Below, piece by piece: positions 428 to 26,620 of a stretch of DNA of 33,665 nt. The first letter of the stretch is position 1. Every line of letters begins with the position of its first letter. Location: contig LJSY01000039.1 of the NCBI GenBank assembly GCA_001314805.1, positions 1 through 33,665 on the forward strand, written 5' to 3'. This DNA is from Rhodobacteraceae bacterium HLUCCO18. Its GTDB lineage: Bacteria > Pseudomonadota > Alphaproteobacteria > Rhodobacterales > Rhodobacteraceae. The notes under the pieces were generated by a model, which saw only the letters and a list, made by a program, of their open reading frames with translations, was not told the origin of the DNA and did not search any database. Position numbers and translations under genes: made by a program.

Positions 428-1057
428 TCACTCCTGACGCTCCCAAGGTCGCGGCCAATCCCTCGGGCGGCTGCCTTCCTCTGCGTACAACATGATGATT
501 CGGTCTACGGCCCGGCGAGTGATGTGCTTGTGCGCTTCGGAAAGACCGAGACTGGCGACCATTTTCCAGTGCCCATACATCAAGCATGTGAATAGGAAAG
601 AGATCTCGGCGCAATGCTCTAGAGTGAGCTGGGGGTGCGCCATCTTGATCTCGAGTGCAAGAACCTGTCCCAACAGAGAATATTGTTCCAGGAGTGCTGC
701 TCGAACCCTCGGCGCCCGCGCAGCATAGGCCATCATGGCATCATAGGCCAAGTCGTCCCTGGGCTTCGGGTGCTCCTCAACAAGGTCAAAATAGAAGTCG
801 AGGATGAAAATCAGTCGCTTCTGACCTTCAAGCCCCTCAACGCCGTTGACCAATGCCATTCGATACGCATCCGCGATACAATCGCAAACACCGAGGAGCA
901 TGTCGGTGGGCTCTTCGCAATGGTAGCGGAGCAACTGGCGTGATGCGGCGCCGCCTTCTGCAAGCTGTCCGAAAGTCGGTAGTGCAGCGCCCACTGTGCA
1001 AAGATGCTTTGCGACGTCTCGGCACATTTTTGTCTTCACATCTTTTTTTGTCGCCAT
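428..1057 (-). CDS. TetR/AcrR-type transcriptional regulator, orphan
   Basis: The 209-residue product has an N-terminal helix-turn-helix of TetR type. The stretch around residues 25-55 (PTFGQLAEGGAASRQLLRYH) fits the tF..lA...G.s...l.yHf pattern of that fold. The rest is predicted helical, as expected of a ligand-binding and dimerisation domain, but the ligand cannot be told. The open frame extends upstream to 1159; I chose the ATG at 1057 because AAAGG lies just upstream of it and because it places the DNA-binding fold at the usual distance from the N-terminus. No target gene is adjacent: the region upstream holds only an IS relic and downstream is gene-free. HTH assignment is from sequence pattern only and the second helix is slightly unusual (Cys in RYHCEEP). 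Confidence 0.7.
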   Translation of the reverse strand: MATKKDVKTKMCRDVAKHLCTVGAALPTFGQLAEGGAASRQLLRYHCEEPTDMLLGVCDCIADAYRMALVNGVEGLEGQKRLIFILDFYFDLVEEHPKPRDDLAYDAMMAYAARAPRVRAALLEQYSLLGQVLALEIKMAHPQLTLEHCAEISFLFTCLMYGHWKMVASLGLSEAHKHITRRAVDRIIMLYAEEGSRPRDWPRPWERQE

Positions 1058-1588
1058 GATCGCCTTTTTCTCCCTGTTGACGAGCTCTTGGTGCAAGGAA
1101 GCACAGGGTTGCGTGACGTTTGAACACACTGTGTGAGTCTTGAGCGCGCCCAAAACCATGCCTCCGCGAATGCACTATCGGAGATCGTCTTGAGTTGGCC
1201 TTTTTGCTGTAAGCGAATGGTGATGCTCTCGAGAACCCGTTCATGCGAAAGGCTGTTTCCAATTGCGGGAGCAGGCCGCAGCTTGTTGCGGTCTGCGTTC
1301 CAAGGGTCCCATGATTTGGCCAAACCGGCAAGGCTTCAGCTTGAGCGCGCATGAACCTGCTTGATGTCGCCTCGGGCGGTCTGCAGAGCGACTGGGGCGC
1401 AACCTGCCTACCGCTGGGCCCGAGCTCGCTGCACCAGGGCGCAGACGGTAAAGATAGGCCAATGCTCCTGAAGCCCGTCCCGTTCTGCGAGAAGCGATCG
1501 AGAATGTCCTTGCATCTCAACAACACTTGGTGCGGGGGTTTAGTTCATGGCTTGGCGAGCGCTTACGCCATCGAAGCAGTGCGGCCGT
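1058..1588. other. Gene-free stretch beside IS relic
   Basis: Several overlapping open frames are present in both directions, but none resembles a protein I know and none has a good ribosome-binding site. A TGAACTAAACCCCCGC-type sequence on the minus strand near 1530-1550, just past the transposase relic, could be the old terminal repeat of the IS3-type element. Nothing else could be identified. Confidence 0.4.
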
Positions 1589-1970: not shown

Positions 1971-3500
1971 CTACCGCATTTTGTTCCGATTCATTCGGAG
2001 CGTGACCTTGAAATCGTCCGTCGCTCGTCTCGGTTCGACGAGCCAGAAGCTGGCGATTACAAGGGCGAGCGCGCCCCATGCGAGGGCAGAGAGCTGTTCG
2101 CCCAGCAGCAGCATGCCCCACGCGATCCCAGCCAGTGTTTGGGAATATGCCATCTGGCTGGCAAAGACCGGACCAGCCATCGACACGAGGCGCAAAGCGA
2201 GCACGAGGGCCACCGCGGACGAGGCGCCGAGGACAAGGACAATCACTTCGCGCATGCCGGGAGCGGCAGCAGGCAAGAACAGCGCGCCCTCTGCTACGGC
2301 CAGAGGCGCCATCAGCACGGCCGCCAATCCCAACATGATCCCGACAGCGGCGGTGGCGTCCACCGACTCCGGCCGCCATGCCATAATCAGCGTGTGCAGC
2401 GACAGAAGGAACGGCAGGACCACGGCGGCAACGAGCCAGAAGAATTCCGCGTCGACGTCTCCGCCGCCCTGCAACAGGACTACCGCGATAGCCGAGAAAC
2501 CCAGACCAAGGCCAAGAAACCGCCTGAGACTGGGTCGCTCGAGTGAGAGCAGCGCCGCCAGCAGGAAGACCATGAATCCCCGCGTGCTGCCGACAAGCGA
2601 GATCAGCGAGGCCTCGACATGGCGGGCTATGATCACAGTGAACAATTGGTAGAGACAGCCCAGAACAATCGCCCAGAACAAGAAGAAGCCAAGATCGCGC
2701 AACGTGATGCGCGGAATCCCGTGGCGCGTAATCGAGACCGCGAGGCAGAGAACGGCCCCGAACGTGTTCGCCCATACAACGAGGCCCAACGCCGGTATCT
2801 CGTGCTGTGCCGCCATGCGCCCGAGCGCGGGCCCAAGACCGAATATACAGCCTGCCGCGAGGACCAGCAGCGTTCCCCGAAGCGTTCGAACGGTGAGGTC
2901 GAACCGTTTCTCGCGCTCGTAGATGTCCTCGGCCAGACCGCGGAACACCATGGCAAGCCGGCCCAGAGGGTCATCGCGCGCCACGACCCGGTCCACGTCC
3001 AGTTCGGACGGGCGAAAGGCGCCGCGCTCGATGATCTGCGCCGCTTCCGTCAGCCGCTCCATGTCACGGAAATACGCAAGCTCCCGGTCGCGCAAACGCT
3101 TGCGCGCGAGCGAAGCGTTCATTCGCGCCTTAAGGATGGTCGGTTCGAAGTCCTTGGGCAGGAAATCCTCCGCGCCCAGTTCGATCGCCCGCGCAACGCT
3201 GCCGATCTCGTCCTCGAGAGAGGACACCACGATGACGGGAATATCCCGCAACGCCTCGTCCTTTTTCATCTCGACCAGCACCGCGTAACCGTCCATCTCG
3301 GGCATGACGATATCGAGCAGGACAACGTCGAAGCGTTTCGCTGCCAGCATCTGCATCGCCTGCCTGCCGTTTCCGGCAATCTCGGCGGTATGCCCGAGCG
3401 CCCTCACCGCCATCGACAGCTTGCGGCCGCTGACGCGGCTGTCATCCACGATCAGGACAGAGCCCGCCGCTTCCTCGGTTTCAGCATCTGATTGGATCAC
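1971..3500 (-). CDS. Receiver domain fused to a DMT/EamA-type permease
   Basis: This 509-residue protein joins two modules in one uninterrupted frame. Residues about 13-130 form a CheY-like receiver: acidic pair D19/D20 (VLIVDDS), phospho-acceptor D63 (VVLLDIVMPEMDG), the S93/S94 switch region and K116 (FLPKDF). Residues about 145-200 form a charged helical linker with a HAMP-like DPLGRLAMVF segment. From about residue 205 to 492 there are some ten hydrophobic segments with the pattern of the EamA/DMT superfamily, usually exporters of amino acids or metabolites. No DNA-binding or enzymatic output domain is present. The GTG start overlaps the TGA of the upstream Hpt gene (GTGA at 3497-3500), so translation is probably coupled. 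I infer that phosphorylation of D63 by the neighbouring kinase/Hpt gates or localises the carrier. Substrate unknown. Confidence 0.88.
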   Translation of the reverse strand: MIQSDAETEEAAGSVLIVDDSRVSGRKLSMAVRALGHTAEIAGNGRQAMQMLAAKRFDVVLLDIVMPEMDGYAVLVEMKKDEALRDIPVIVVSSLEDEIGSVARAIELGAEDFLPKDFEPTILKARMNASLARKRLRDRELAYFRDMERLTEAAQIIERGAFRPSELDVDRVVARDDPLGRLAMVFRGLAEDIYEREKRFDLTVRTLRGTLLVLAAGCIFGLGPALGRMAAQHEIPALGLVVWANTFGAVLCLAVSITRHGIPRITLRDLGFFLFWAIVLGCLYQLFTVIIARHVEASLISLVGSTRGFMVFLLAALLSLERPSLRRFLGLGLGFSAIAVVLLQGGGDVDAEFFWLVAAVVLPFLLSLHTLIMAWRPESVDATAAVGIMLGLAAVLMAPLAVAEGALFLPAAAPGMREVIVLVLGASSAVALVLALRLVSMAGPVFASQMAYSQTLAGIAWGMLLLGEQLSALAWGALALVIASFWLVEPRRATDDFKVTLRMNRNKMR

Positions 3501-3898
3501 CCGGTGCCCGTCGAACCTCCGAGATCTTCCAGACTGACGTCCGCGAGCGCCTTCCGGGCGGCCTGTTCGGCGCGCGCGATGTCGTCAGCTGCGGCGGCAA
3601 GGTCGGCCACGTTCGCATCCGAGGTGCTTGCGGTTTCTGCAGCGGCACAGAGTTCCGACAGCTGCACCGCGCCAAAATCGCGGGCGTTGGATTTCAGAGT
3701 GTGGGCCGCGATGCGAAACGCGGTGCGGTCCCCGCTGGCGGACGCCTCGATCATGCGGCCCGCCAGATCGGGGGCATCCTCGAGGTAATCGCCCACCAGC
3801 TCTGCCAGTTCATCCGGATCGTTTCCGACGACGTTCAGCAATCTCAGAAGGGCTGTGCGGTCGATCCAACCCGGATCGGTTACGTCTTCGTTTTTCAT
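3497..3898 (-). CDS. Stand-alone histidine phosphotransfer (Hpt) protein
   Basis: The 133-residue protein is a single Hpt domain. The phospho-accepting histidine is H66 in IAAHTLKSNARDFGA, which matches the family pattern AHtLKssarnlGa. Before it lies an acidic helix (DELAELVGDYLEDAPDLAGRM) typical of the four-helix bundle. Its ATG overlaps the kinase stop codon (ATGA, 3895-3898) and its own TGA overlaps the GTG of the receiver-permease gene. In TorS/ArcB-type relays the Hpt module is usually the kinase's last domain; here it has been split off as a separate protein. Its evident role is to pass phosphate from the kinase's second receiver (D1128) to D63 of the receiver-permease. Confidence 0.9.
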   Translation of the reverse strand: MKNEDVTDPGWIDRTALLRLLNVVGNDPDELAELVGDYLEDAPDLAGRMIEASASGDRTAFRIAAHTLKSNARDFGAVQLSELCAAAETASTSDANVADLAAAADDIARAEQAARKALADVSLEDLGGSTGTG

Positions 3899-6800
3899 GT
3901 CGCTCTTTCCTGGGTGGTCTGGCGGCCAAGCTGCGCCTCGCGGAAGGCGGCGCCACGCCTGAGGCAGACAAGCAGGTCGTCCTCGTTCACGGGCTTGCTT
4001 AGGTAATCGTCCATCCCCGCCTTAAGGTAGGACTCGCGGTCCGACACCTGGGCATTGGCAGTCAGCGCCACGATGTAGGGCCTGAGGCGGTCCCCCATGG
4101 CCTCGCGAATCTTCGCAGACGCCGTCACGCCGTCCATGTCCGGCATTTCGATATCCATGAGGATGACATCGAACGCCCCGTCGAGAGCCATGGACACCGC
4201 CTCCGGTCCGCCGGTGGCTATCCGTGGCGCAAAACCGTTCCGTTCCAGAAGCTTGCAGCCGACCTTCCGGTTGATCCGGTTGTCATCCACCAGCAGAATG
4301 GACAGCTCTTCGGCATCCACTGTTCCTGTGGCGTCGGTGCTGTCCTCGGTAGTGGGAAGGGTGTCGGGGGCTACGGCGTTGGCCAGGGCGGAAAGAAGCT
4401 GCGAGGTTTTCGCGGGTTTCGCGATGATCGAGGAAAAACCGGCCGCTCGGAGTTCGGACCAGAAACCCGGCTCGCCGGGGGTCAGCGAGGTGAGCAGGAT
4501 CATCGGTGGCGTGCGGTCGCCGCACGCCACCCGGATGGCCGTCGCGAGGTCGAGCCCGTTCATGCCGGGCATCTTGTAGTCGATCAAGAGCGCGTCGAAC
4601 GTGTCCCCCTTTTTCATGCGCTCAAGCGCCGTGCCCGGAAGGCTGTCCGTTTCGGGGACGACGCCCCACGCGCGCAGGCGCTCTTCGAGTATTCTTCTGT
4701 TGGTTCCATTGTCGTCCACGACAAGTACCCGCGCCTCCTGCAGAGCGGCAATCTGGCGGCGCTGGTTCGCCACGGCCGGCGGGTTGCACGGGTGCATGGA
4801 AAGCTCGAAGGAAAAGGTCGATCCGGCCCCGACCTCGCTCGAGACCTCGATCTTGCCGCCCATGCGCTCGACAAGCCGCTGGCTTATCGCAAGGCCTAGC
4901 CCGGTGCCGCCGAACCGCCGCGTGGTCGAGGCGTCCACCTGGCTGAAGGAGCGGAACAGACGATCCATGCGATCTCCGGGAATTCCGATGCCCGTGTCGG
5001 AAACGACGAAGCGGATTGCCGGCGCCCCTTCGTCGCTCCCGGCGCGATCGGCGGGTTCGACCGTGAGTAGAACCTCGCCCTTTTCGGTGAACTTGACCGC
5101 GTTGTTCAGGAGGTTCAGCAGGACCTGCTTGAGTCGCGTCGGATCGCCGATAACGCCCATGGGCACGTCCGGACTGATCCGACAGGCAAGTTCGATGCCC
5201 TTTTCGTCGGCGCGCGGCATCACCAGTTCGACGGCCGATTCCACGGTCTCCGAGAGGTTGATCGGTATTTCCTCGAGCTCGAGGGCCCCGGCCTCGACCT
5301 TGGAGAAATCGAGTATGTCGTTGATGATCGAGAGCAAGGTATCCGCCGCCGTGCCGATCGTGGCAGCGAAGTCGCGTTGTTCCGCATCGAGCTTGGTCGT
5401 GGACAGAAGGCTGCTCATTCCGATGATCCCGTTCAGCGGCGTGCGGATCTCGTGGCTCATTGTTGCAAGGAAGGTGCTTTTCGCCTCATTGGCGGCCTCG
5501 GCCTGTTCCTTCGCTTCGGTCAGCTGTCCCTCTCTCGCTTTCAGTTCGCTGATATCGGAATACACGACGACCGTACCGCCATCGGTGGTCTTGCGCTTTT
5601 CGATCTTGACCCAACGCTCATCCGGCAACAGCCGGATACTCGGTTCATCGAAAACAGCCCCGGTTTTCGCCGCCGGCTGGTCCGGGGCACGACTGACGCC
5701 GACGCGGACGCCGGTCCCGGCCGGGGCCCGCGCGGCCAGTTGGGCAATGGATATTCCCGGCTGCACGAAACGTCCCTTCGGATCGCCCAGAAAATCCCGG
5801 TATCGCGCGTTGCACAGAACGAGATGATCGCTCTCGTCGAAGAAGGCGAAGCCGTCCGGGATGCTTTCGATTGCGTCGATCAGGCGTTGTCGGGTCTCCG
5901 CGATTTCGCGCAGGTTGGTGCGCTCCATCTCCACGGCCGTGTCGCGAAACACGGCAAGTGCGCGCATCAGCCGGGATACCTCGTCCCGTCCGGACGCCTC
6001 GGGAAGCGCGACGTGCAGGTTGCCGCCTGCCAATGAGAGCGCGGCATTGGAAAATGCGCTCAGCCGGGAGCCAAGGCTGCGATTGACGTAGAAGATCGCG
6101 CCGAGGATCACGACCAGAGAAGATAGCAGCACGATCGCGAGATTGACGCGGCTCGTCTCCAGCGTTTCCAGTACGCGCTCGGCCGAAGCATTCGCGGCGC
6201 CCCGCGTTTCGGCCACGATGGCGGCAGACAGATCGCCCATGTCACCGGTCAGATCGTTTGTGCTTTGCAGCAACTGGTCTGCGCGCTCAAGCGCGGCAAG
6301 CTCTCGGATCCGCAAATCGAAGACGTTGTTCCCGTCGACGCCGAACCCGATAAGCCGAGCGGCCAGTTCGGCGGTTTCGGACACTTCGGTTCGAACCATC
6401 AAGCTGTCGAGCAGGCGGGTGGTTTCCGCCTGCAGCCCGCGAAGATCGTCCTGGAGGTTCAGGAGTTCCGCTTCGTCTTCTGCGAAAGGGGCCAGAGAGA
6501 GGATGCCTACTGCCTGATTGCCGAGAGCCTCGAGCGTAAGCAGCGCGCCATACCCCTCGATACCCGCATCGTTGATCGCATCGAGGCTTTCCCCGACCTG
6601 CCGGCGCAGGTCGGCGGCGACCGTTACCGCCTGCCCCCGGATCTGGATGATCGAACTGCGCAGATTGAACTCCAGTTGGGAGACGACCTGCCGCAGATCA
6701 TTCCCGACCAAGGTGGCGTCCAGAAGCTCCGCATCGGGCCCCCTGATCATGGCGCGCCGCCGCTCAAAGATGCTGGTGTCGCCTGCGCCCAGCGTAACGA

Positions 6801-7536
6801 TGGAATCGAGGATGTCCGAGACGGCCTCGACAGCGACGACCTGCGATACGGATGAGTTTCGCCGCAATTCGTCAACATTGCGCAAGGCGGTGGAACTGGC
6901 CGGAACGAAAGTGCTCCACGCGTCCTGGACCGCCTCCTCGGTTTCGGCAGTCAGCGCCGCGCCAAGTGCCTGTTCCATCACGCCAAGCTGTATCTGCATG
7001 CTGAGAAGCGGGATCAGTCCCTCCACGCTGAGTTCGTTGAGATAGGTGACCGTGGCATCGGTGCCGCTGCCGACCCGTTCGCTCTCGGCACTCAGGACGG
7101 CCAGTTGGTCGTCGATCACGGGCGCGATCGAAGCTGAAAACGCGGCGTGTGTCCGCGCAAGCTCCTGCATGCGGCCGTTGAGCGTGATCTGGAGATCGAT
7201 GCGCCGTGCGATCGTTTCCGCAAGGGATCGCGAGACTGTCGCGACCTCGTCCACCGATTCCGCGAGCCGGGCGACGCGGTCGGAATTGTCCGCGCCCGCC
7301 TCGAAACGGTCGATGACGGTTTGCACACGGTCGAGATAAATGAGCAGCCTCTCGCGACGCGCGGACAATTGTTCGGGGAGGGCCGATGTTGCGACCGATG
7401 CCGCGGCACTGCGGATATTTGTGGTCGTATCCGAGACCTCGTAGGCGATGATCAGTGCCGGAATATCGTCGTTGGTGATGGAGGTAAGCTGCGACTGGAC
7501 GACGATGTTCGTCCGGTGCGCGATAAGCGCAGCCAC
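3895..7536 (-). CDS. TorS-like hybrid sensor histidine kinase with two receivers
   Basis: From the GTG at 7536 the protein has 1213 residues. A large, mostly helical periplasmic sensor region (about residues 10-455) is followed by a membrane segment (about 462-482), HAMP (480-535) and a PAS-like domain (about 555-670). Then come the phospho-acceptor H-box (ATMSHEIRTPLNGI, H695), an HATPase domain (DTGIGIPGDRM and GGTGLGLAI), receiver 1 (D986 in LLIDYKMPG) and receiver 2 (D1128 in ILMDIEMPDMDG). No Hpt domain follows; it is encoded by the next gene. The frame stays open upstream of 7536 and encodes a second hydrophobic segment (KLLLVIAIILVSAAVAALIA) that would be transmembrane helix 1. No ATG, GTG or TTG precedes that segment. 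A CTG at 7650, about 8 nt after AAAGG, is a possible true start. The upstream gene is a TRAP-type binding protein, its likely sensing partner. Confidence 0.9.
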   Translation of the reverse strand: MAALIAHRTNIVVQSQLTSITNDDIPALIIAYEVSDTTTNIRSAAASVATSALPEQLSARRERLLIYLDRVQTVIDRFEAGADNSDRVARLAESVDEVATVSRSLAETIARRIDLQITLNGRMQELARTHAAFSASIAPVIDDQLAVLSAESERVGSGTDATVTYLNELSVEGLIPLLSMQIQLGVMEQALGAALTAETEEAVQDAWSTFVPASSTALRNVDELRRNSSVSQVVAVEAVSDILDSIVTLGAGDTSIFERRRAMIRGPDAELLDATLVGNDLRQVVSQLEFNLRSSIIQIRGQAVTVAADLRRQVGESLDAINDAGIEGYGALLTLEALGNQAVGILSLAPFAEDEAELLNLQDDLRGLQAETTRLLDSLMVRTEVSETAELAARLIGFGVDGNNVFDLRIRELAALERADQLLQSTNDLTGDMGDLSAAIVAETRGAANASAERVLETLETSRVNLAIVLLSSLVVILGAIFYVNRSLGSRLSAFSNAALSLAGGNLHVALPEASGRDEVSRLMRALAVFRDTAVEMERTNLREIAETRQRLIDAIESIPDGFAFFDESDHLVLCNARYRDFLGDPKGRFVQPGISIAQLAARAPAGTGVRVGVSRAPDQPAAKTGAVFDEPSIRLLPDERWVKIEKRKTTDGGTVVVYSDISELKAREGQLTEAKEQAEAANEAKSTFLATMSHEIRTPLNGIIGMSSLLSTTKLDAEQRDFAATIGTAADTLLSIINDILDFSKVEAGALELEEIPINLSETVESAVELVMPRADEKGIELACRISPDVPMGVIGDPTRLKQVLLNLLNNAVKFTEKGEVLLTVEPADRAGSDEGAPAIRFVVSDTGIGIPGDRMDRLFRSFSQVDASTTRRFGGTGLGLAISQRLVERMGGKIEVSSEVGAGSTFSFELSMHPCNPPAVANQRRQIAALQEARVLVVDDNGTNRRILEERLRAWGVVPETDSLPGTALERMKKGDTFDALLIDYKMPGMNGLDLATAIRVACGDRTPPMILLTSLTPGEPGFWSELRAAGFSSIIAKPAKTSQLLSALANAVAPDTLPTTEDSTDATGTVDAEELSILLVDDNRINRKVGCKLLERNGFAPRIATGGPEAVSMALDGAFDVILMDIEMPDMDGVTASAKIREAMGDRLRPYIVALTANAQVSDRESYLKAGMDDYLSKPVNEDDLLVCLRRGAAFREAQLGRQTTQERAT

Positions 7537-7693
7537 CGCCGCCGAAACGAGGATGATTGCTATGACTAGCAGAAGCTTCGCCCGGATGGTGGACGGTAGA
7601 AGGCTGGCAACCCAGCCGATCCGGTTCCCTGTTGTACCGGCGTTGGACAGCGTGCCGACCTTTCTTAGTGACCCCGCCTCCGGGTAGGCTGCT

Positions 7694-8842
7694 TCAGAGG
7701 CGCAATTCCAATCCCGCGATGTCGTCCGGCGTGATATAGGCCACGGCCGGATTGAGCATCACCTGCAGGTGCAGCGCAAAGACCCGCGCGGAGTCCTGGT
7801 CCCGGTTGGCCCATTCGAACCAGAGCGGAATGGCGATCCGGCGAAATCTGTCGACATCCTCTTCCGACAATCGCGTGACCTCCACCCCGGCATCCGCGAA
7901 TTGCTGCCATGCGGCGATATTTGCCTGTTGGTGGGCCGTGAAGTGCTCAACGGAAAACGCGCGGACCAACTCGGTGAGGAGGTCTTGGGTCGGTGCCGAA
8001 AGACTGTCCCAGACGGTCTGGTTGAACACGACGATGGTCAGATCCACCGGCTGGTGCAGGCAGGGCGTCGAGGCCGGCCCCATGACGATGTAGTCACTCA
8101 CCTCCGCGAAGCCGAGATCGTAGTTCATGGCAGGGCCGGTGAAGTCGGCAGCATCGATGGCACCCGAGGCGAGCGCTGGGCGAACCTCCGAACCGGCAAG
8201 GGTGATCGTGCGGGCGCCAATTGCCTCGAAACAGTCCGCTATGATGCCGCCGGGCATCCGCAGACTGATCCCTTCGAAATCCTCCAAAGACCGGATCGGC
8301 ACGTTGGAGTGGATCAGGTTCATGTCATGATGGACATGGCCGACGAAGTGCAGTCCGTGCCGGGCGTATAGGTCCCGAGCGAGTTCCGTGCCGCCGTAGC
8401 TGTCGAACAGCATATCCCATTGATGGGGATGGGGCAGGCCCATCGGGAAGGAGGTGAAGAAGGCCCCGGCAGGCATGGCGCCGGTGATCGCGGCGTAGTG
8501 CGGGACCCAATGCATCCCGTCCAGTACGCCGGCCGAGGTGGCCGTCATCATGTCGAATATCTCGGTCACCGACCCGCCGGCATAGGGGACGAAATCGACC
8601 TCCCCGGACGTCAGTTCGACAACCCGTTCGCACCAATCGCGGAAAGTGTTGTAGCCGATCGTATTCTCGGTCCAGAGGGATTGCAGGGTCAGTCTGCGGC
8701 CTGCGGAGACTTGTGCATTTCCAATGAAGGGCGAAGCTAAGGCCCCGGCGCCAAGCGCCGCGGTGGCGATGAACGCCCTGCGCGTCCCGGCGGCACACAG
8801 CTTATCAGAGCCTTTGCCCGTCGGCGCGCTGACCTGGTGCAT
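7694..8842 (-). CDS. TRAP-type periplasmic binding protein, probable sensor partner
   Basis: This 382-residue protein starts with a Tat-type signal (TRRAFIATAALGAGALAS, about residues 20-37) followed by a DctP/TakP-like solute-binding fold. The family landmark is EGISLRMPGG with the conserved arginine that usually contacts a carboxylate, followed by EVRPALASGAIDAADFTGP. It is shorter in its conserved motifs and more divergent than the binding protein at 22082-23167. No DctQ or DctM permease is next to it; the next gene is a hybrid histidine kinase. This suggests it presents a bound organic acid to the kinase, as TorT does for TorS and as some TRAP binding proteins do for DctS-type sensors. 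The start has a nine-G tract as ribosome-binding site. The ligand cannot be named. Confidence 0.85.
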   Translation of the reverse strand: MHQVSAPTGKGSDKLCAAGTRRAFIATAALGAGALASPFIGNAQVSAGRRLTLQSLWTENTIGYNTFRDWCERVVELTSGEVDFVPYAGGSVTEIFDMMTATSAGVLDGMHWVPHYAAITGAMPAGAFFTSFPMGLPHPHQWDMLFDSYGGTELARDLYARHGLHFVGHVHHDMNLIHSNVPIRSLEDFEGISLRMPGGIIADCFEAIGARTITLAGSEVRPALASGAIDAADFTGPAMNYDLGFAEVSDYIVMGPASTPCLHQPVDLTIVVFNQTVWDSLSAPTQDLLTELVRAFSVEHFTAHQQANIAAWQQFADAGVEVTRLSEEDVDRFRRIAIPLWFEWANRDQDSARVFALHLQVMLNPAVAYITPDDIAGLELRL

Positions 8843-21646: not shown

Positions 21647-22081
21647 CCGCGAAACGGCGCGGTTCGTGAACAATATGTCGCGACAGGGGGTGGATGCGCA
21701 ACTTTCTACACGGCCTGCGCATCGGAGCCGAGGCGACGGCGCAGCTTGCCCGGCCCCGCAAGCCGGGCGTCGGTTGTCCGTCGGTGGCCCCGTTTGCGGG
21801 GTGGGGATGTTGGGCGCCAATTGTCCAGACGGGGCACAGTCGATTCACGACCGGCGGCCCGATTGGCCACGATGACAGGAGGATAGCGCTACCGACCTGC
21901 AACCTTGGGTTGAATAGCCGATGTCTGAGCCATTTTGGTAAGGAAATTTTACAAAAAAGTGCATTTCGGGGGCGAAAAACTGTTTCGCGACGCCAAACGC
22001 TTCGCTAACGTTCCGCGCACTGCGAATACCAAATCCGCGACCCGCAAGAGGTCTGCGGACTATCCAACTGGGAGGATACCA
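21647..22081. other. Intergenic region between divergent ilvI and TRAP operon
   Basis: No gene is seen in these 435 bp. It must contain the promoter of the TRAP operon. A dyad GCGAAA-AACTG-TTTCGC (21972-21988), about 100 bp before the binding-protein ATG, is a possible operator. The AT-richer stretch just upstream (21936-21960) could hold the promoter, but no clear -35/-10 pair was found. Confidence 0.4.
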
Positions 22082-23167
22082 ATGGATCGCCGTTCATTCC
22101 TGCGCACGTCGGCACTCGGCGGCGCAGCAGCCGCTACCACTACGCTTGCGGCACCGGCTTATGCCCAAGGCAACCGCACGCTGACCATGGTCACGTCGGT
22201 TCCCGACGGCTTCGCCGTTTTTGACGATGCCGCACAGCTCGCCATCGACTACATCACCGCGATGACCGACGGTCAGCTGTCGTTCAACAAGATGCCCGCG
22301 GGCTCCCTCGTGGGCGCCTTCGAGGTGTTCGACGCGGTCTCCGCCGGGCAGGCGGACGTCTACCACTCCGCCGAATACTACTTCCTCAACCAGCACCCGG
22401 CCTTCGCCTTCATGACGTCGGTGCCCTTCGGCATGACCAGCCAGGAAATGTCGAACTGGTACTACCGCCGCGGCGGGCAGGAACTGCACGATAACCTGTC
22501 GTCGCTGTTCAACCTCAAGCCGCTGATGTGCGGCATGACCGCGATGCAGCCCGGCGGCTGGTTCAACACCGAGATCAACTCGGCCGACGACCTGCAGGGC
22601 CTGCGCTTCCGCATGCCGGGCCAGGGCGGCCAGGTGCTCGGGCGTCTCGGCGCGTCGGTGCAGAACATCCCCGGCGGCGAAATCTACCAGGCGCTGGCCT
22701 CGGGCCAGATCGACGGTGCCGAGTGGATCGGTCCCTACGCGGACGAGCGTCTGGGCTTCCAGGAGGTCACGAACCTCTACTACACCGCCGGCTTCCACGA
22801 GCCGGGCTCGGCCCTGCACCTGTCGTTCAACCTCGAAGTGTGGGAATCGCTGACCGCGCAGCAGCAGCAGATCGTGAAGGTCGCCGCCGAAGCCGCACAT
22901 GCGCAGAACACCGCGCTCTCGCTGGCCGAGAATGGTGCCGCACTCGCCCGTCTGATGTCGGAAGGCGTGACGCCCCGCGAATTCCCGGACGACGTCTGGG
23001 ACGCGTTTGGTCGCGCCTCCGCCGAGGTCAACGCCGAGAACATGGACGACCCGATCTATGCCGAGATCGCCGAGAGCTACTTCGCGTCCATGGAGGAATC
23101 CTCGGCCTGGTACGAGATCGGCGACGGTGAGTACATGCGCCAGCGTAACCGCGTGAACGCGGCCTGA
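22082..23167 (+). CDS. TRAP transporter periplasmic binding protein (TakP-like)
   Basis: The 361-residue protein begins with a Tat signal (MDRRSFLRTSALGGAAAA; cleavage probably after AYA near residue 28). The mature part matches the TakP-like branch of DctP binding proteins: LQGLRFRMPGQGGQVLGRLG with the carboxylate-binding Arg, PGGEIYQALASGQIDGAEW, and GPYADERLGFQEV. TakP of Rhodobacter binds 2-oxo acids such as pyruvate, and related proteins bind lactate or other monocarboxylates, so a 2-oxo or hydroxy acid is the best guess. GGAGG lies 7 nt before the ATG. It is the first gene of a complete transporter operon. A strong hairpin follows its stop, which probably gives more binding protein than permease. 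Confidence 0.93.
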   Translation: MDRRSFLRTSALGGAAAATTTLAAPAYAQGNRTLTMVTSVPDGFAVFDDAAQLAIDYITAMTDGQLSFNKMPAGSLVGAFEVFDAVSAGQADVYHSAEYYFLNQHPAFAFMTSVPFGMTSQEMSNWYYRRGGQELHDNLSSLFNLKPLMCGMTAMQPGGWFNTEINSADDLQGLRFRMPGQGGQVLGRLGASVQNIPGGEIYQALASGQIDGAEWIGPYADERLGFQEVTNLYYTAGFHEPGSALHLSFNLEVWESLTAQQQQIVKVAAEAAHAQNTALSLAENGAALARLMSEGVTPREFPDDVWDAFGRASAEVNAENMDDPIYAEIAESYFASMEESSAWYEIGDGEYMRQRNRVNAA

Positions 23168-23183
23168 TCGCGACCCCAGCTAT

Positions 23184-23218
23184 GCCTCGCCCGGCGCCTT
23201 CTGCGCACCGGGCGGGGC
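23184..23218 (+). promoter_or_regulatory. Intercistronic hairpin between binding protein and DctQ
   Basis: GCCTCGCCCGG pairs with CCGGGCGGGGC (11 bp, one T-G) around a 13-nt loop and is followed by TCTTTC. It lies 17 nt after the binding-protein stop. It resembles the mRNA-stabilising or partially terminating hairpins found after binding-protein genes in transport operons. Confidence 0.6.
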
Positions 23219-23279
23219 TCTTTCAATTGCCGGGAGCGGACATGCCCGAGACCTGGGCTGGCCTTCGAGGGATCACCAC

Positions 23280-24191
23280 ATGATCGAATTCGTCCTTTGG
23301 GTGCTGCAGAACATCGCGATGTCGCCCTATTACCTGTTCGTCGCGATCACCAATCCCGGCGACTGGCTCGACTGGAGCAATCCCGAAGCGGTGATGCGCT
23401 TCATCTATTACGGCGCTTCGGTCGAATTCTTCTTCGTCGTGTTCACGACCTTTCTCATTCTCACCGCGCTCGGCATGGCCTGGAAGCGCGAGATCCTCTG
23501 GACCGCCGTCCGCATACTCGAGGCCGTCGCGAACGCGGTCGGACGGACCGCTGCCTGGGCGGGCCTCGTTATGGTGCTCATCCAGGTGATGATCGTGTTC
23601 CTGCAGCGCATCTTCCGCGTCGCCGCGATCGAGCTCGGACCGTTCGGCACGGCCGTCGCCTTCGACCTGAGCTGGTGGGCCGAGGGCCTGAAGTTCTGGA
23701 ATGCCATCGTGGTGACGCTCTGCGTTGCCTATACATTCGTGCAGGGCAGCCATGTGCGCGTCGACCTGGTCTATTCGGCGGTGAAGTTCCGCACGAAAAA
23801 GGTGATCGACATGTTCGGCGCGCTGTTTTTCATGATGCCCGCAATCGTCATCACCTATCTCTACGCGTGGTTCTTCATGTGGCGCCACCTGATGACGCCC
23901 TCGGTCACCTCCACCAGCGAGATCGACCGCATGCTGATGCAGGCCCGCATCTTCCGCTGGAACGTGGAGACCATCGGCTTCAGCCCGAACGGCTTCAACG
24001 CCTACTTCCTGTTCAAGGTGCTGATCGTGCTGTTCTGCGTAATGGTCTTCCTGCAGGCCATCGCCGTCTTCTGGCGATCCTACCTCGAATGGGTCGAGGG
24101 TGAAGAGAGCGAGAACAAGTATCTCGATCGCGACGAGACGGGCGACGAGGCCGAGGATCTGGAACACGCCATCCATTCCGGTTCAATCTGA
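23280..24191 (+). CDS. TRAP transporter small membrane subunit (DctQ type)
   Basis: The 303-residue integral membrane protein is the small subunit that couples binding protein and large permease. The usual four-helix DctQ core can be seen in the middle and C-terminal parts (LKFWNAIVVTLCVAYTFVQG, SHVRVDLVYSAV, MFGALFFMMPAIVITYLYAW and a last helix near FKVLIVLFCVMVFLQAIAVF). At 303 residues it is longer than the usual 160-200; the extra is an N-terminal part with at least two more hydrophobic segments, as in TakQ-like members that go with large DctM proteins. The C-terminal tail is strongly acidic. It lies 112 bp after the binding protein and 74 bp before DctM. Confidence 0.9.
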   Translation: MIEFVLWVLQNIAMSPYYLFVAITNPGDWLDWSNPEAVMRFIYYGASVEFFFVVFTTFLILTALGMAWKREILWTAVRILEAVANAVGRTAAWAGLVMVLIQVMIVFLQRIFRVAAIELGPFGTAVAFDLSWWAEGLKFWNAIVVTLCVAYTFVQGSHVRVDLVYSAVKFRTKKVIDMFGALFFMMPAIVITYLYAWFFMWRHLMTPSVTSTSEIDRMLMQARIFRWNVETIGFSPNGFNAYFLFKVLIVLFCVMVFLQAIAVFWRSYLEWVEGEESENKYLDRDETGDEAEDLEHAIHSGSI

Positions 24192-24265
24192 GCGGGCCGA
24201 AGACGGGGCGAATTGGGGACAGACGGCACGCAAGAAACGCGCCGTAATGAGGGGAAAGACGAACC

Positions 24266-26620
24266 ATGCTGTTCGGTTTGGATGGGGTCGAGATAGGCCT
24301 GATCATCGTGTTCCTGACGCTGTTCGCGGGGATCATGACAGGCTTTCCGGTGGCGTTCGCCATCGCCGGGGCGGGCATGATCTCGTTCGCGATCATCGCC
24401 GCGCTGGATTCCGCGGGGCTGCTGATCCACCAGGCCATCGACACGGGCTCGGCTGAATATTCCGCGCTTGTCGCCGAAGGCGTGGTACGAGAAGCGATAT
24501 CCGTCTTCCGATACCCTGAATTGCCACGCATCGAGGAACCGTTGTTTCCCGGCGGCTGGGAAGTGGCGATGGAGCGCAACATCTCCTTCATCGTCAACCG
24601 CATGAACGAGCGCGTGATTGCGGGCCAGTCCATCGAGACGCTTCTGGCCGTTCTGATGTTCGTCCTGATGGGCATCACGCTGGAGCGCTCCAAGATCGCC
24701 GAGGAACTGCTGACCACCATGGCGCGCGTCTTCGGCCCGCTGCCGGGCGGTCTGGCCGTATCCATCGTGATCGTGGGCGCTTTCCTCGCCGCCTCGACCG
24801 GCATCGTCGGCGCCACCGTGGTGACCATGGGCCTTCTGGCCCTGCCCACGATGCTCCGGAACAACTATTCGCCCGAGCTTGCCACCGGCGTGATCGCGGC
24901 CTCGGGCACCCTTGGGCAGATCATCCCGCCCTCGATCGTGATCGTACTGCTCGGAACGCTCGTGGGCGACCTCTACGCCACGGGGCAGGAGACCCGCGCG
25001 CAGCTCGCCGGCTGCAACGACGCGCTCACCTACCTCGGCGAGCCCGCGGTCCTGTCGGTCGGCACGCTCTTCCAGGCGGCACTTCTGCCCGGAATATTCC
25101 TGGCCGTTCTCTATGGCGCCTATGCCTTCGGCTTCGCGCTGATCAACCCGTCCAAGGCGCCCGCCGTCGAACTGGGCGGCACAAGCAAGTCCGAGCCGGT
25201 CACGCGGAACGAGGCCCTGACCTGGTTCCTGGCTGCGCCGGCGGCAATCCTCATCGCGGTCGGCCTTGCAAGCGGCGGCGGCCTGATCGGCAGTCAGACC
25301 GCCTTCCTGACGGAGACCGGCACACAGGAAGAACGGACGCTCAGGACCAACGTCTCCGAACAGTGCCAGGCCGCGATGATCGACCTGCACGGCCAGGAGG
25401 CCTGGGACCGCGCCGTCGAACTGCAGGCCGCGAATGCAACCGCCGCTGAGGAAGAAGTTGATCCGGAGGAACTGACCGAAGAAGAGATCGCCGACGCCTT
25501 CGCAGAGGCGCGCGACGCGGTCGCTCCGATCGGCTCGGGCGTGGCGACGATCTTTGTCCTGTTCGCGCTCATGCTCGTCGTGGCGCGTGGCGTTTCGCCG
25601 GCCTCGGACCCGACACCGCTCTATGTGGGGGCGGGGGGCGTGGCGTTGGCGCTGCTGTTCGACATCCTGTTCATAACGCCGGTCATGGGTTCCGGCGCGA
25701 CCTTCCTGATCCTCGCCGTGCCGACGATTCTCGCCATCTACGGCGTGCGAGAGGCGGTGATCCGCATGTCGCGCAACGAGCTTCTGCGCGTCGTCTTCCC
25801 GCCGCTGATCCTCATCGTCGCGGTGCTGGGCTCCATCCTCGGCGGCATCACCAATCCCACGCCGGCGGCCGCGCTCGGTGCGGCGGGCGCCATCATGCTC
25901 GCGGCCTATCGCAAGCTGAAGGAAGAAAACGGCAAGTCGAAGATCGTGATCTGGGCGAGCTTCGCGCTGGTCATCATGATCCTTCTGGGCGTGAATTTCG
26001 ACCTCAGGATCACCCGGCAGGTGGTGCCGTTCGAGGATTGGGTGGCGTATGTGCTGTCCCAGATCGCCTATCACTTCGCCTTCTTCGGGCTGCTGTTCTC
26101 CTGCTGGGTGCTGTTCCGGTCGAACATCCTCAGCCCGGTGGTGCGCGAGACGGCGAAGGTCACGTCGATGGTCTTCACCATCCTCATCGGCTCGCAACTG
26201 CTGAACCTGGTGCTGATCTCCTTCGGGGGAGAGCACCACATCCAGCAATATCTGCGCAGCTTCGACAACGAGATGGTCGTGTTCCTCGTCGTCATGGTGA
26301 TCCTCTTCATCCTCGGCTTCGTGCTCGACTTCCTCGAGATCATCTACATCGTGGTCCCGATCGTAGGGCCGGTGATCTATGGCGGCACGCTCGACCCGGC
26401 ATGGGTGACGATCATGATCGCGGTGAACCTGCAGACCTCGTTCCTGACACCGCCATTCGGCTTCGCGCTGTTCTACCTGCGCGGCGTGGCGCCACCGCAG
26501 GTGACGACGGGGAACATCTATCGCGGGGTGCTGCCCTTCGTGGTGATCCAGGTGCTGGGACTGGGGCTGCTGTGGCTGTTCCCGGCGATCGTGACGATCC
26601 TGCCGGACCTGCTGAACTAG
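24266..26620 (+). CDS. TRAP transporter large permease subunit (DctM type), enlarged
   Basis: The 784-residue protein is the ion-coupled permease of the TRAP carrier. The DctM core is recognisable in separated blocks: GLIIVFLTLFAGIMTGFPVA at the N-terminus, LMGITLERSKIAEELL, ASTGIVGATVVTMGLLALP, GVIAASGTLGQIIPPSIVIV, GGITNPTPAAALGAAGAIM, FILGFVLDFLEI and TSFLTPPFGFALFYLRG. Normal DctM is near 430 residues. Here two insertions account for most of the difference: about 60 residues after the first helices, and about 150-200 in the middle. The middle one includes a hydrophilic acidic stretch around residues 390-425 (EEEVDPEELTEEEIADAF) and extra membrane segments. Such long forms are known among roseobacter TakM-like proteins. 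It is the last gene of the operon. Confidence 0.92.
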   Translation: MLFGLDGVEIGLIIVFLTLFAGIMTGFPVAFAIAGAGMISFAIIAALDSAGLLIHQAIDTGSAEYSALVAEGVVREAISVFRYPELPRIEEPLFPGGWEVAMERNISFIVNRMNERVIAGQSIETLLAVLMFVLMGITLERSKIAEELLTTMARVFGPLPGGLAVSIVIVGAFLAASTGIVGATVVTMGLLALPTMLRNNYSPELATGVIAASGTLGQIIPPSIVIVLLGTLVGDLYATGQETRAQLAGCNDALTYLGEPAVLSVGTLFQAALLPGIFLAVLYGAYAFGFALINPSKAPAVELGGTSKSEPVTRNEALTWFLAAPAAILIAVGLASGGGLIGSQTAFLTETGTQEERTLRTNVSEQCQAAMIDLHGQEAWDRAVELQAANATAAEEEVDPEELTEEEIADAFAEARDAVAPIGSGVATIFVLFALMLVVARGVSPASDPTPLYVGAGGVALALLFDILFITPVMGSGATFLILAVPTILAIYGVREAVIRMSRNELLRVVFPPLILIVAVLGSILGGITNPTPAAALGAAGAIMLAAYRKLKEENGKSKIVIWASFALVIMILLGVNFDLRITRQVVPFEDWVAYVLSQIAYHFAFFGLLFSCWVLFRSNILSPVVRETAKVTSMVFTILIGSQLLNLVLISFGGEHHIQQYLRSFDNEMVVFLVVMVILFILGFVLDFLEIIYIVVPIVGPVIYGGTLDPAWVTIMIAVNLQTSFLTPPFGFALFYLRGVAPPQVTTGNIYRGVLPFVVIQVLGLGLLWLFPAIVTILPDLLN

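Follow-up and report, generated by a model that had tools for sequence, protein, structure and literature searches.

The last gene of a four-gene operon in a 33,665-nucleotide stretch of DNA from Rhodobacteraceae bacterium HLUCCO18 (contig LJSY01000039.1; the whole analysed stretch is called the window) encodes a receiver domain fused to a ten-helix EamA/DMT membrane permease. This protein, REC-EamA, is a response regulator with a transporter domain in the place of the output. Known outputs of two-component systems are DNA binding, protein binding and enzymes. The anatomy of the operon supports a phosphorelay that ends on the transporter. Gene order, domains, kept residues, linkage and purifying selection come from the sequence data themselves; ligand, phosphotransfer, coupling, direction and substrate are inferred. 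Judging from sequence, we hold with moderate confidence that transport through the EamA half is under the control of receiver phosphorylation.

The operon and the fusion protein

The four genes all lie on the minus strand, in the order DctP-type binding protein, hybrid kinase, Hpt protein and REC-EamA (aa, amino acids; TM1, first transmembrane helix; pLDDT, predicted local distance difference test):

1971..3500, minus strand: REC-EamA fusion, 509 aa, with a GTG start overlapping the Hpt stop codon (Pfam and AlphaFold2 model, pLDDT 82.7)
3111..3461, minus strand: receiver domain of REC-EamA, residues 14-130, with D19, D20, D63 (codon 3312-3314), S93 and K116 (Pfam Response_reg, 80.2 bits, cut-off 30.2)
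2886..3110, minus strand: HAMP-like helical linker of REC-EamA, residues 131-205, continuing into TM1 (weak HAMP match and modelled helices)
2031..2885, minus strand: EamA/DMT membrane half, residues 206-490, ten helices in two EamA repeats (Pfam, AlphaFold2 model, Foldseek and alignment)
3497..3898, minus strand: Hpt protein, 133 aa, with H66 at codon 3701-3703 (Pfam Hpt, 43.3 bits, cut-off 24.6)
3895..7650, minus strand: TorS-like hybrid kinase carrying two receivers (start probably CTG 7650; first canonical start in frame, GTG 7536)
7694..8842, minus strand: DctP-family periplasmic binding protein with Y116 and D233 (Pfam DctP, 126.8 bits, cut-off 23.4; best solved match TTHA0766, 2zzv)

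Open reading frames and Pfam bore out the four same-strand genes and the coordinates given in an earlier note on this DNA (the original prediction), as well as its four-base overlaps, which read ATGA at the kinase/Hpt junction and GTGA at the Hpt/REC-EamA junction. D63 of the receiver and H66 of the Hpt protein had been named correctly. The proposed union of a receiver and a ten-helix EamA permease in one protein also held, since both Pfam domains fall in a single open frame, with EamA scoring 60.4 bits over two stretches (cut-off 28.2). Beyond these two domains, Pfam detected none in REC-EamA at E 0.001, and a weak HAMP match at E 1. A DNA-binding domain was found in none of the four operon proteins (Pfam, E up to 0.001).

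The AlphaFold2 model of REC-EamA, built from nine sequences, had a predicted TM-score of 0.62 and runs from the receiver through a helix at residues 120-159, a short break and a helix at residues 178-220 that enters TM1, to the DMT fold. In Foldseek, the receiver part matched many solved receivers and the membrane half matched LicB (7paf, TM 0.80 of target), the triose-phosphate translocator 5y78 and SLC35B1. A phmmer search of the EamA half against the PDB returned no match at E up to 1. The receiver is placed in the cytoplasm mainly because Hpt must reach it. Secondarily, 13 Lys/Arg residues lie before TM1 and in the tail vs 4 in the loops, counted over hand-chosen segments, a charge pattern which hints that both ends of the protein, and hence the receiver, are cytoplasmic. 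A viral fold search of REC-EamA gave significant rows only for separate receiver and EamA-fold matches. A phage origin was rejected: 111 phage records matched, none of them over 80% of the query.

Recurrence, conservation and selection

A search for the REC-EamA architecture and its neighbours across alphaproteobacteria, which the original prediction had proposed, found 15 copies in 12 distinct loci, of which 12 copies (10 loci) are intact. In this count G244 (G handles denote genomes) and a Brevirhabdus metagenome-assembled genome were taken as one locus, as were three Mesorhizobium plasmids, and the three damaged copies (the third copy of G244, G269 and G1349) were excluded from the residue counts for REC-EamA. 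Such recurrence goes far beyond chance. When the window protein served as query, seven of the 394 sampled genomes of the family matched over both domains (the window's own genome, G031, G244, G280, G331, G269 and G250), the G269 match starting at residue 78. Further searches used a nine-sequence profile at E 1e-60 and recovered the fusion in 1/385 genomes of the class (own genome), 2/398 of the phylum (own and G250) and 2/397 of the order sampled around Devosia (the Devosia genome itself and G1349). At genus level the counts were 1/5 for the own genus, 2/5 for the genus of G031, 2/5 for that of G280 and 1/3 for that of G331. In the family, class, phylum and order searches, scoring was limited to the top three candidates of each genome and may therefore miss weak cases. 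A scan of genome contigs gave matches over both domains in the Brevirhabdus assembly and in Devosia sp. 66-14, two among the 80 loci listed from 390 relatives; the other 78 listed loci gave no EamA match at E 1e-4. Among 72,556 plasmid records three carried REC-EamA, all from Mesorhizobium, and in the two of these examined the protein is annotated as one coding sequence, "response regulator".

The receiver residues D19, D20, D63, S93 and K116 are identical in all 12 intact proteins. The EamA half keeps R327, G330, G334, G443, F446, Q449, Y452, G458, E468 and V488 unchanged throughout the 12 fusions and 15 aligned stand-alone EamA proteins. The phospho-acceptors of the partner proteins are likewise retained: the kinase His and first-receiver Asp in 12/12, the second-receiver Asp in 11/11 assessable kinases and the Hpt His in 11/11 Hpt proteins (three read by eye). 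Ratios of non-synonymous to synonymous substitution (dN/dS) showed purifying selection on all three segments of REC-EamA. For G031 vs G1520 they were 0.19 for the receiver, 0.05 for the linker (75 codons; the lowest) and 0.16 for EamA; for the window vs G1520, 0.21, 0.16 and 0.16; and for the window vs G031, where synonymous sites were near saturation, 0.15, 0.06 and 0.13, respectively.

The hybrid kinase and Hpt

Pfam assigned HAMP, PAS_7, HisKA and HATPase_c domains to the window kinase, all above their cut-offs, together with two Response_reg stretches. Its TorS sensor-domain match (25.2 bits) was just below the cut-off of 27, which the relatives in G031 (29.4) and G250 (30.5) exceeded; against the NCBIfam model TMAO_torS the kinase scored 506.1 bits, below the cut-off of 676.5. 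The open frame holds no ATG, GTG or TTG upstream of GTG 7536, and a start there would cut the first membrane helix. The residues upstream of this codon resemble, by eye, the start of the G031 kinase, and translation therefore probably begins at the non-standard CTG 7650, which would give 1251 aa with H733, D1024 and D1166. The numbers of these residues in the original prediction, H695, D986 and D1128, were counted from GTG 7536.

The binding protein and its likely signal

The closest solved relative of the window DctP, which has a twin-arginine signal by eye, is the lactate-binding protein TTHA0766 of Thermus (2zzv; E 1.2e-104 over residues 20-380). In the eLACCO sensors built on TTHA0766, according to passages of the report describing them, Tyr80Phe removes a hydrogen bond to lactate, Asp444Asn abolishes binding and Ca2+ is required (PMC8648760). 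Y116 and D233 of the window DctP align with a Tyr and an Asp of TTHA0766 that we tentatively equate with Tyr80 and Asp444, and are also present in the DctP proteins of G031 and G1520; the equation is our own offset argument, in which signal removal and the fluorescent protein placed inside the sensor are corrected for. Because of the relatedness to TTHA0766 and these two shared putative ligand-site residues, the ligand is likely an external 2-hydroxy acid, lactate or similar, bound with Ca2+. The two systems differ in that the window DctP adjoins a kinase and that Pfam found no DctQ/DctM permease gene in the operon, which also sets it apart from TRAP transporters.

A separate TRAP set lies elsewhere in the window (21959-26620, plus strand), with DctP (156.7 bits) and DctM (192 bits) both over their cut-offs and a DctQ-like gene at 24.8 bits, below the cut-off of 28.3. 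On a Mesorhizobium plasmid (L137 10709-11734), a hydroxyacid dehydrogenase gene lies directly 3' of REC-EamA, a possible hint at a substrate.

Variable inputs and a constant end of the relay

A hybrid kinase adjoins REC-EamA in 12/12 loci and an Hpt gene is present in 11/12. The exception for Hpt is G269, where the kinase is split between two frames and cut, and a transposase gene lies between it and the REC-EamA remnant. Two transposase-like genes with similar beginnings occur in that contig (L123 8259-9425 and 15014-16180), the first, the only one scanned, with an rve domain.

The sensory parts differ from locus to locus. The periplasmic partner is DctP in the window, G031 and G1520, and SBP_bac_3 in G331 (convergent) and G250, with a 58% relative of the G250 protein in G1349. 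In G244, G280 and G269 it is a related protein of about 255 residues, secreted-looking by eye; Pfam matched neither of the two that were scanned. G1524 has a 59% identical relative of the Tll0287-like protein beside the G063 kinase. In Devosia a binding-protein gene of another type, SBP_bac_8, is found about 4 kb away from REC-EamA. Kinase sensors are TorS-like in the window, G031 and G250 (Pfam) and, by similarity, in G1520 and G1349. CHASE5 matches at or below the cut-off of 27 were seen in G244 (27.1), G280 (24.3) and G269 (20.1), to which G331 is related by similarity only. GAF sensors are found in Devosia (Pfam) and Mesorhizobium (annotation), and Pfam recognized no named periplasmic domain in the G1524 kinase. 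Inputs, both sensor and periplasmic partner, thus vary and the Hpt/REC-EamA end is constant, which marks EamA as the output. The module looks portable, with different sensors wired to the same output.

Two genomes hold more than one copy of the fusion. In G280 (L121 8216-11664) two REC-EamA genes lie beside one relay, and G244 (L120 8779-17180) has two intact copies, a third split between frames and a single Hpt. One Hpt feeding two or more REC-EamA proteins may constitute a branched relay in these genomes.

Related relays ending on a nucleotide cyclase

Seven genomes of the family (G063, G251, G240, G005, G055, G266 and G141) carry comparable relays. They too have a hybrid kinase and Hpt, and their terminal receivers share 49-53% identity with that of the window, but their output is a nucleotide cyclase (Guanylate_cyc) instead of EamA, recognized in two by Pfam and in five by similarity to one of those two. 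In six of the seven, a short gene that matches Hpt weakly (E 7e-6 or better) stands between the kinase and receiver-cyclase genes. G063 departs from this order: its Hpt is part of the kinase, and its receiver-cyclase gene is convergently oriented. Because these related relays carry a cyclase in the place of EamA, the terminal output looks exchangeable. In the records L127-L132, which have such terminal receiver-nucleotide cyclases, the hybrid kinases are 1,970-3,038 aa long; the single one scanned contains nine GAF stretches. In L125 (1729-6829), a possible periplasmic protein, a hybrid kinase and a 245-aa receiver without EamA are followed by a gene that by eye looks ParA/MinD-like; it may be a further output used with this type of receiver.

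In a tree of EamA halves, the 12 fusions stood apart from 15 stand-alone EamA proteins, which were the best hits within one family, with support of 100/99. In the receiver tree the fusion group had support of 61/0 and appeared in 54% of bootstrap trees; at an open fork, one receiver-cyclase and a further receiver fell within the fusions. On these trees a single origin of the fusion is no more than possible.

Proposed mechanism and alternatives

In the mechanism we propose, the ligand of the exported DctP would be a small 2-hydroxy acid, probably lactate bound together with Ca2+. The protein would then signal by way of the putative all-helical periplasmic domain of the TorS-like kinase, much as TorT signals to TorS. 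Phosphate would pass from the kinase His to a kinase receiver Asp, on to His66 of Hpt and finally to Asp63 of REC-EamA. With D63 phosphorylated, receiver pairing would change, and the HAMP-like helical linker would carry this change into TM1 of the EamA transporter. The result would be switched transport of a metabolite, more likely out than in. The original prediction had likewise placed the end of the relay on the transporter; the His-Asp-His-Asp set, the gene linkage, the conserved acceptors and the EamA core agree with it. Export, the direction that it inferred, was not accepted as settled, because the best solved match to the membrane half, among the best 50 of 1105 Foldseek rows, is LicB, a choline importer, and the phmmer search against the PDB was empty.

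Several observations weigh against control of transport by the receiver. Distribution is rare and patchy (7/394 family genomes, 1/5 in the own genus), and three of the 15 copies are damaged. The linker can be called HAMP-like on sub-threshold matches: its HAMP score in the window was 18.9 bits, below the cut-off of 25, and at E up to 1 a match appeared in three of nine REC-EamA proteins, the best at 24.7 bits. At long range the linker is not the most conserved part, its mean identity over the 12 proteins (0.45) being below that of the receiver (0.56) though above that of EamA (0.39). Sensing in the periplasm is not general, as the GAF-kinase loci of Devosia and Mesorhizobium gave no match to five periplasmic queries. 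Transporter domains fused to signalling proteins can, by analogy with the Amt-kinase KsAmt5, lose transport; KsAmt5 moves NH4+ inefficiently, as stated in passages of PMC8534201. Finally, LuxR-type genes adjoin REC-EamA in two relatives. In G250, a 615-residue open reading frame with a LuxR-type GerE domain lies on the same strand 3' of REC-EamA and overlaps its end (L124 431-2278, minus strand), and in G1349 a 55% identical GerE relative is convergent to REC-EamA (L149 15654-17414, minus strand). These genes could carry a transcriptional output. The absence of a DNA-binding output noted in the original prediction therefore holds for the window operon and fails for these two relatives.

It is unlikely, in our judgement, that the EamA half serves as a membrane anchor or substrate sensor and not as a working transporter, with REC-EamA acting on another protein or reporting occupancy to the kinase. 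Transporter-like domains do occur in signalling proteins, among them KsAmt5 (PMC8534201) and the SLC5 transceptor CbrA (PMC13022988), in the parts of these reports that concern them. However, the EamA core residues of the fusions match those of stand-alone EamA proteins, and dN/dS of EamA in the G031-G1520 pair is 0.16. Moreover, the receiver sits at the end of the relay, and EamA is constant while the sensory parts change between loci.

Rather less likely again is that another regulator provides the main output, leaving the receiver of REC-EamA as a phosphate sink and the transporter unregulated. Hpt proteins can serve several receivers. The presence of the LuxR-type gene in both G250 and G1349 made this explanation slightly stronger and receiver-controlled transport slightly weaker, and in G280 a Trans_reg_C/TPR gene adjoins the second REC-EamA. 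Yet in the subset of neighbouring genes scanned, a LuxR-type gene was found in none of the other 10 of 12 loci and the Trans_reg_C/TPR gene in 1/12, and neither the GerE nor the Trans_reg_C/TPR proteins have a receiver in Pfam. Receiver, linker and EamA are moreover all under purifying selection, which argues against a mere sink. As for an assembly or frameshift artefact joining separate receiver and EamA genes, which the original prediction had named as a way to be wrong, its probability is negligible: split or cut copies occur in three genomes (the third copy of G244, G269 and G1349), but uninterrupted frames in 12 copies from 10 loci, including Mesorhizobium plasmid records with one coding sequence, rule out an assembly join.

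Relation to known systems

Among the closest known systems is TorT-TorS-TorR of E. coli, which senses trimethylamine N-oxide with a binding protein, an all-helical periplasmic kinase sensor and a multi-step relay, as outlined in passages of PMC8534201. The window operon differs in its separate Hpt protein, its DctP-family binding protein and its transporter output. In the TorS relay the DNA-binding output is TorR; unlike TorR/OmpR-type regulators, REC-EamA has no DNA-binding domain. PleD, a receiver-GGDEF response regulator, is the solved protein that the receiver part matches best by sequence (chain E 2.4e-40, over two stretches). It resembles REC-EamA in that a receiver drives a fused output that does not bind DNA, but this output is a soluble enzyme. 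Transporter folds fused to two-component proteins are known from SLC5/STAC kinases such as CbrA and from KsAmt5 (passages of PMC13022988 and PMC8534201). As described there, the transporter of CbrA and KsAmt5 is on the kinase, as input, whereas in the window it is on the last receiver and the kinase is separate.

In open-licence literature we found no described REC-EamA protein and no transporter-output response regulator, in line with the statement of the original prediction that no characterised example was known. The word "transporter" is absent from the main text of PMC12471899, and in a table of PMC12487129 EamA and receiver domains each have an entry of their own. We see about an even chance that these proteins form a class of response regulators with transport as output, in which phosphate ends on the transporter and an external 2-hydroxy acid gates flux without transcription, some of them perhaps with a branched relay. 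If so, the transporter as phospho-acceptor would provide a post-translational route from sensing to flux, for which the lactate-like binding protein offers a concrete first candidate ligand.

Surroundings of the operon in the window

The next large genes upstream of DctP encode anthranilate synthase and a SurA-like protein. Third-position GC was 0.72-0.79 in the four operon genes vs 0.87-0.90 in three neighbours, which together with the patchy distribution is consistent with horizontal transfer. No tRNA was found in the window. Positions 1-1970 have a low GC of 0.577 and include an open reading frame (428-1159, minus strand) with no Pfam match, regulator-like by eye, as well as a direct repeat of 39 bases whose two copies, at 60-98 and 121-159, match perfectly.

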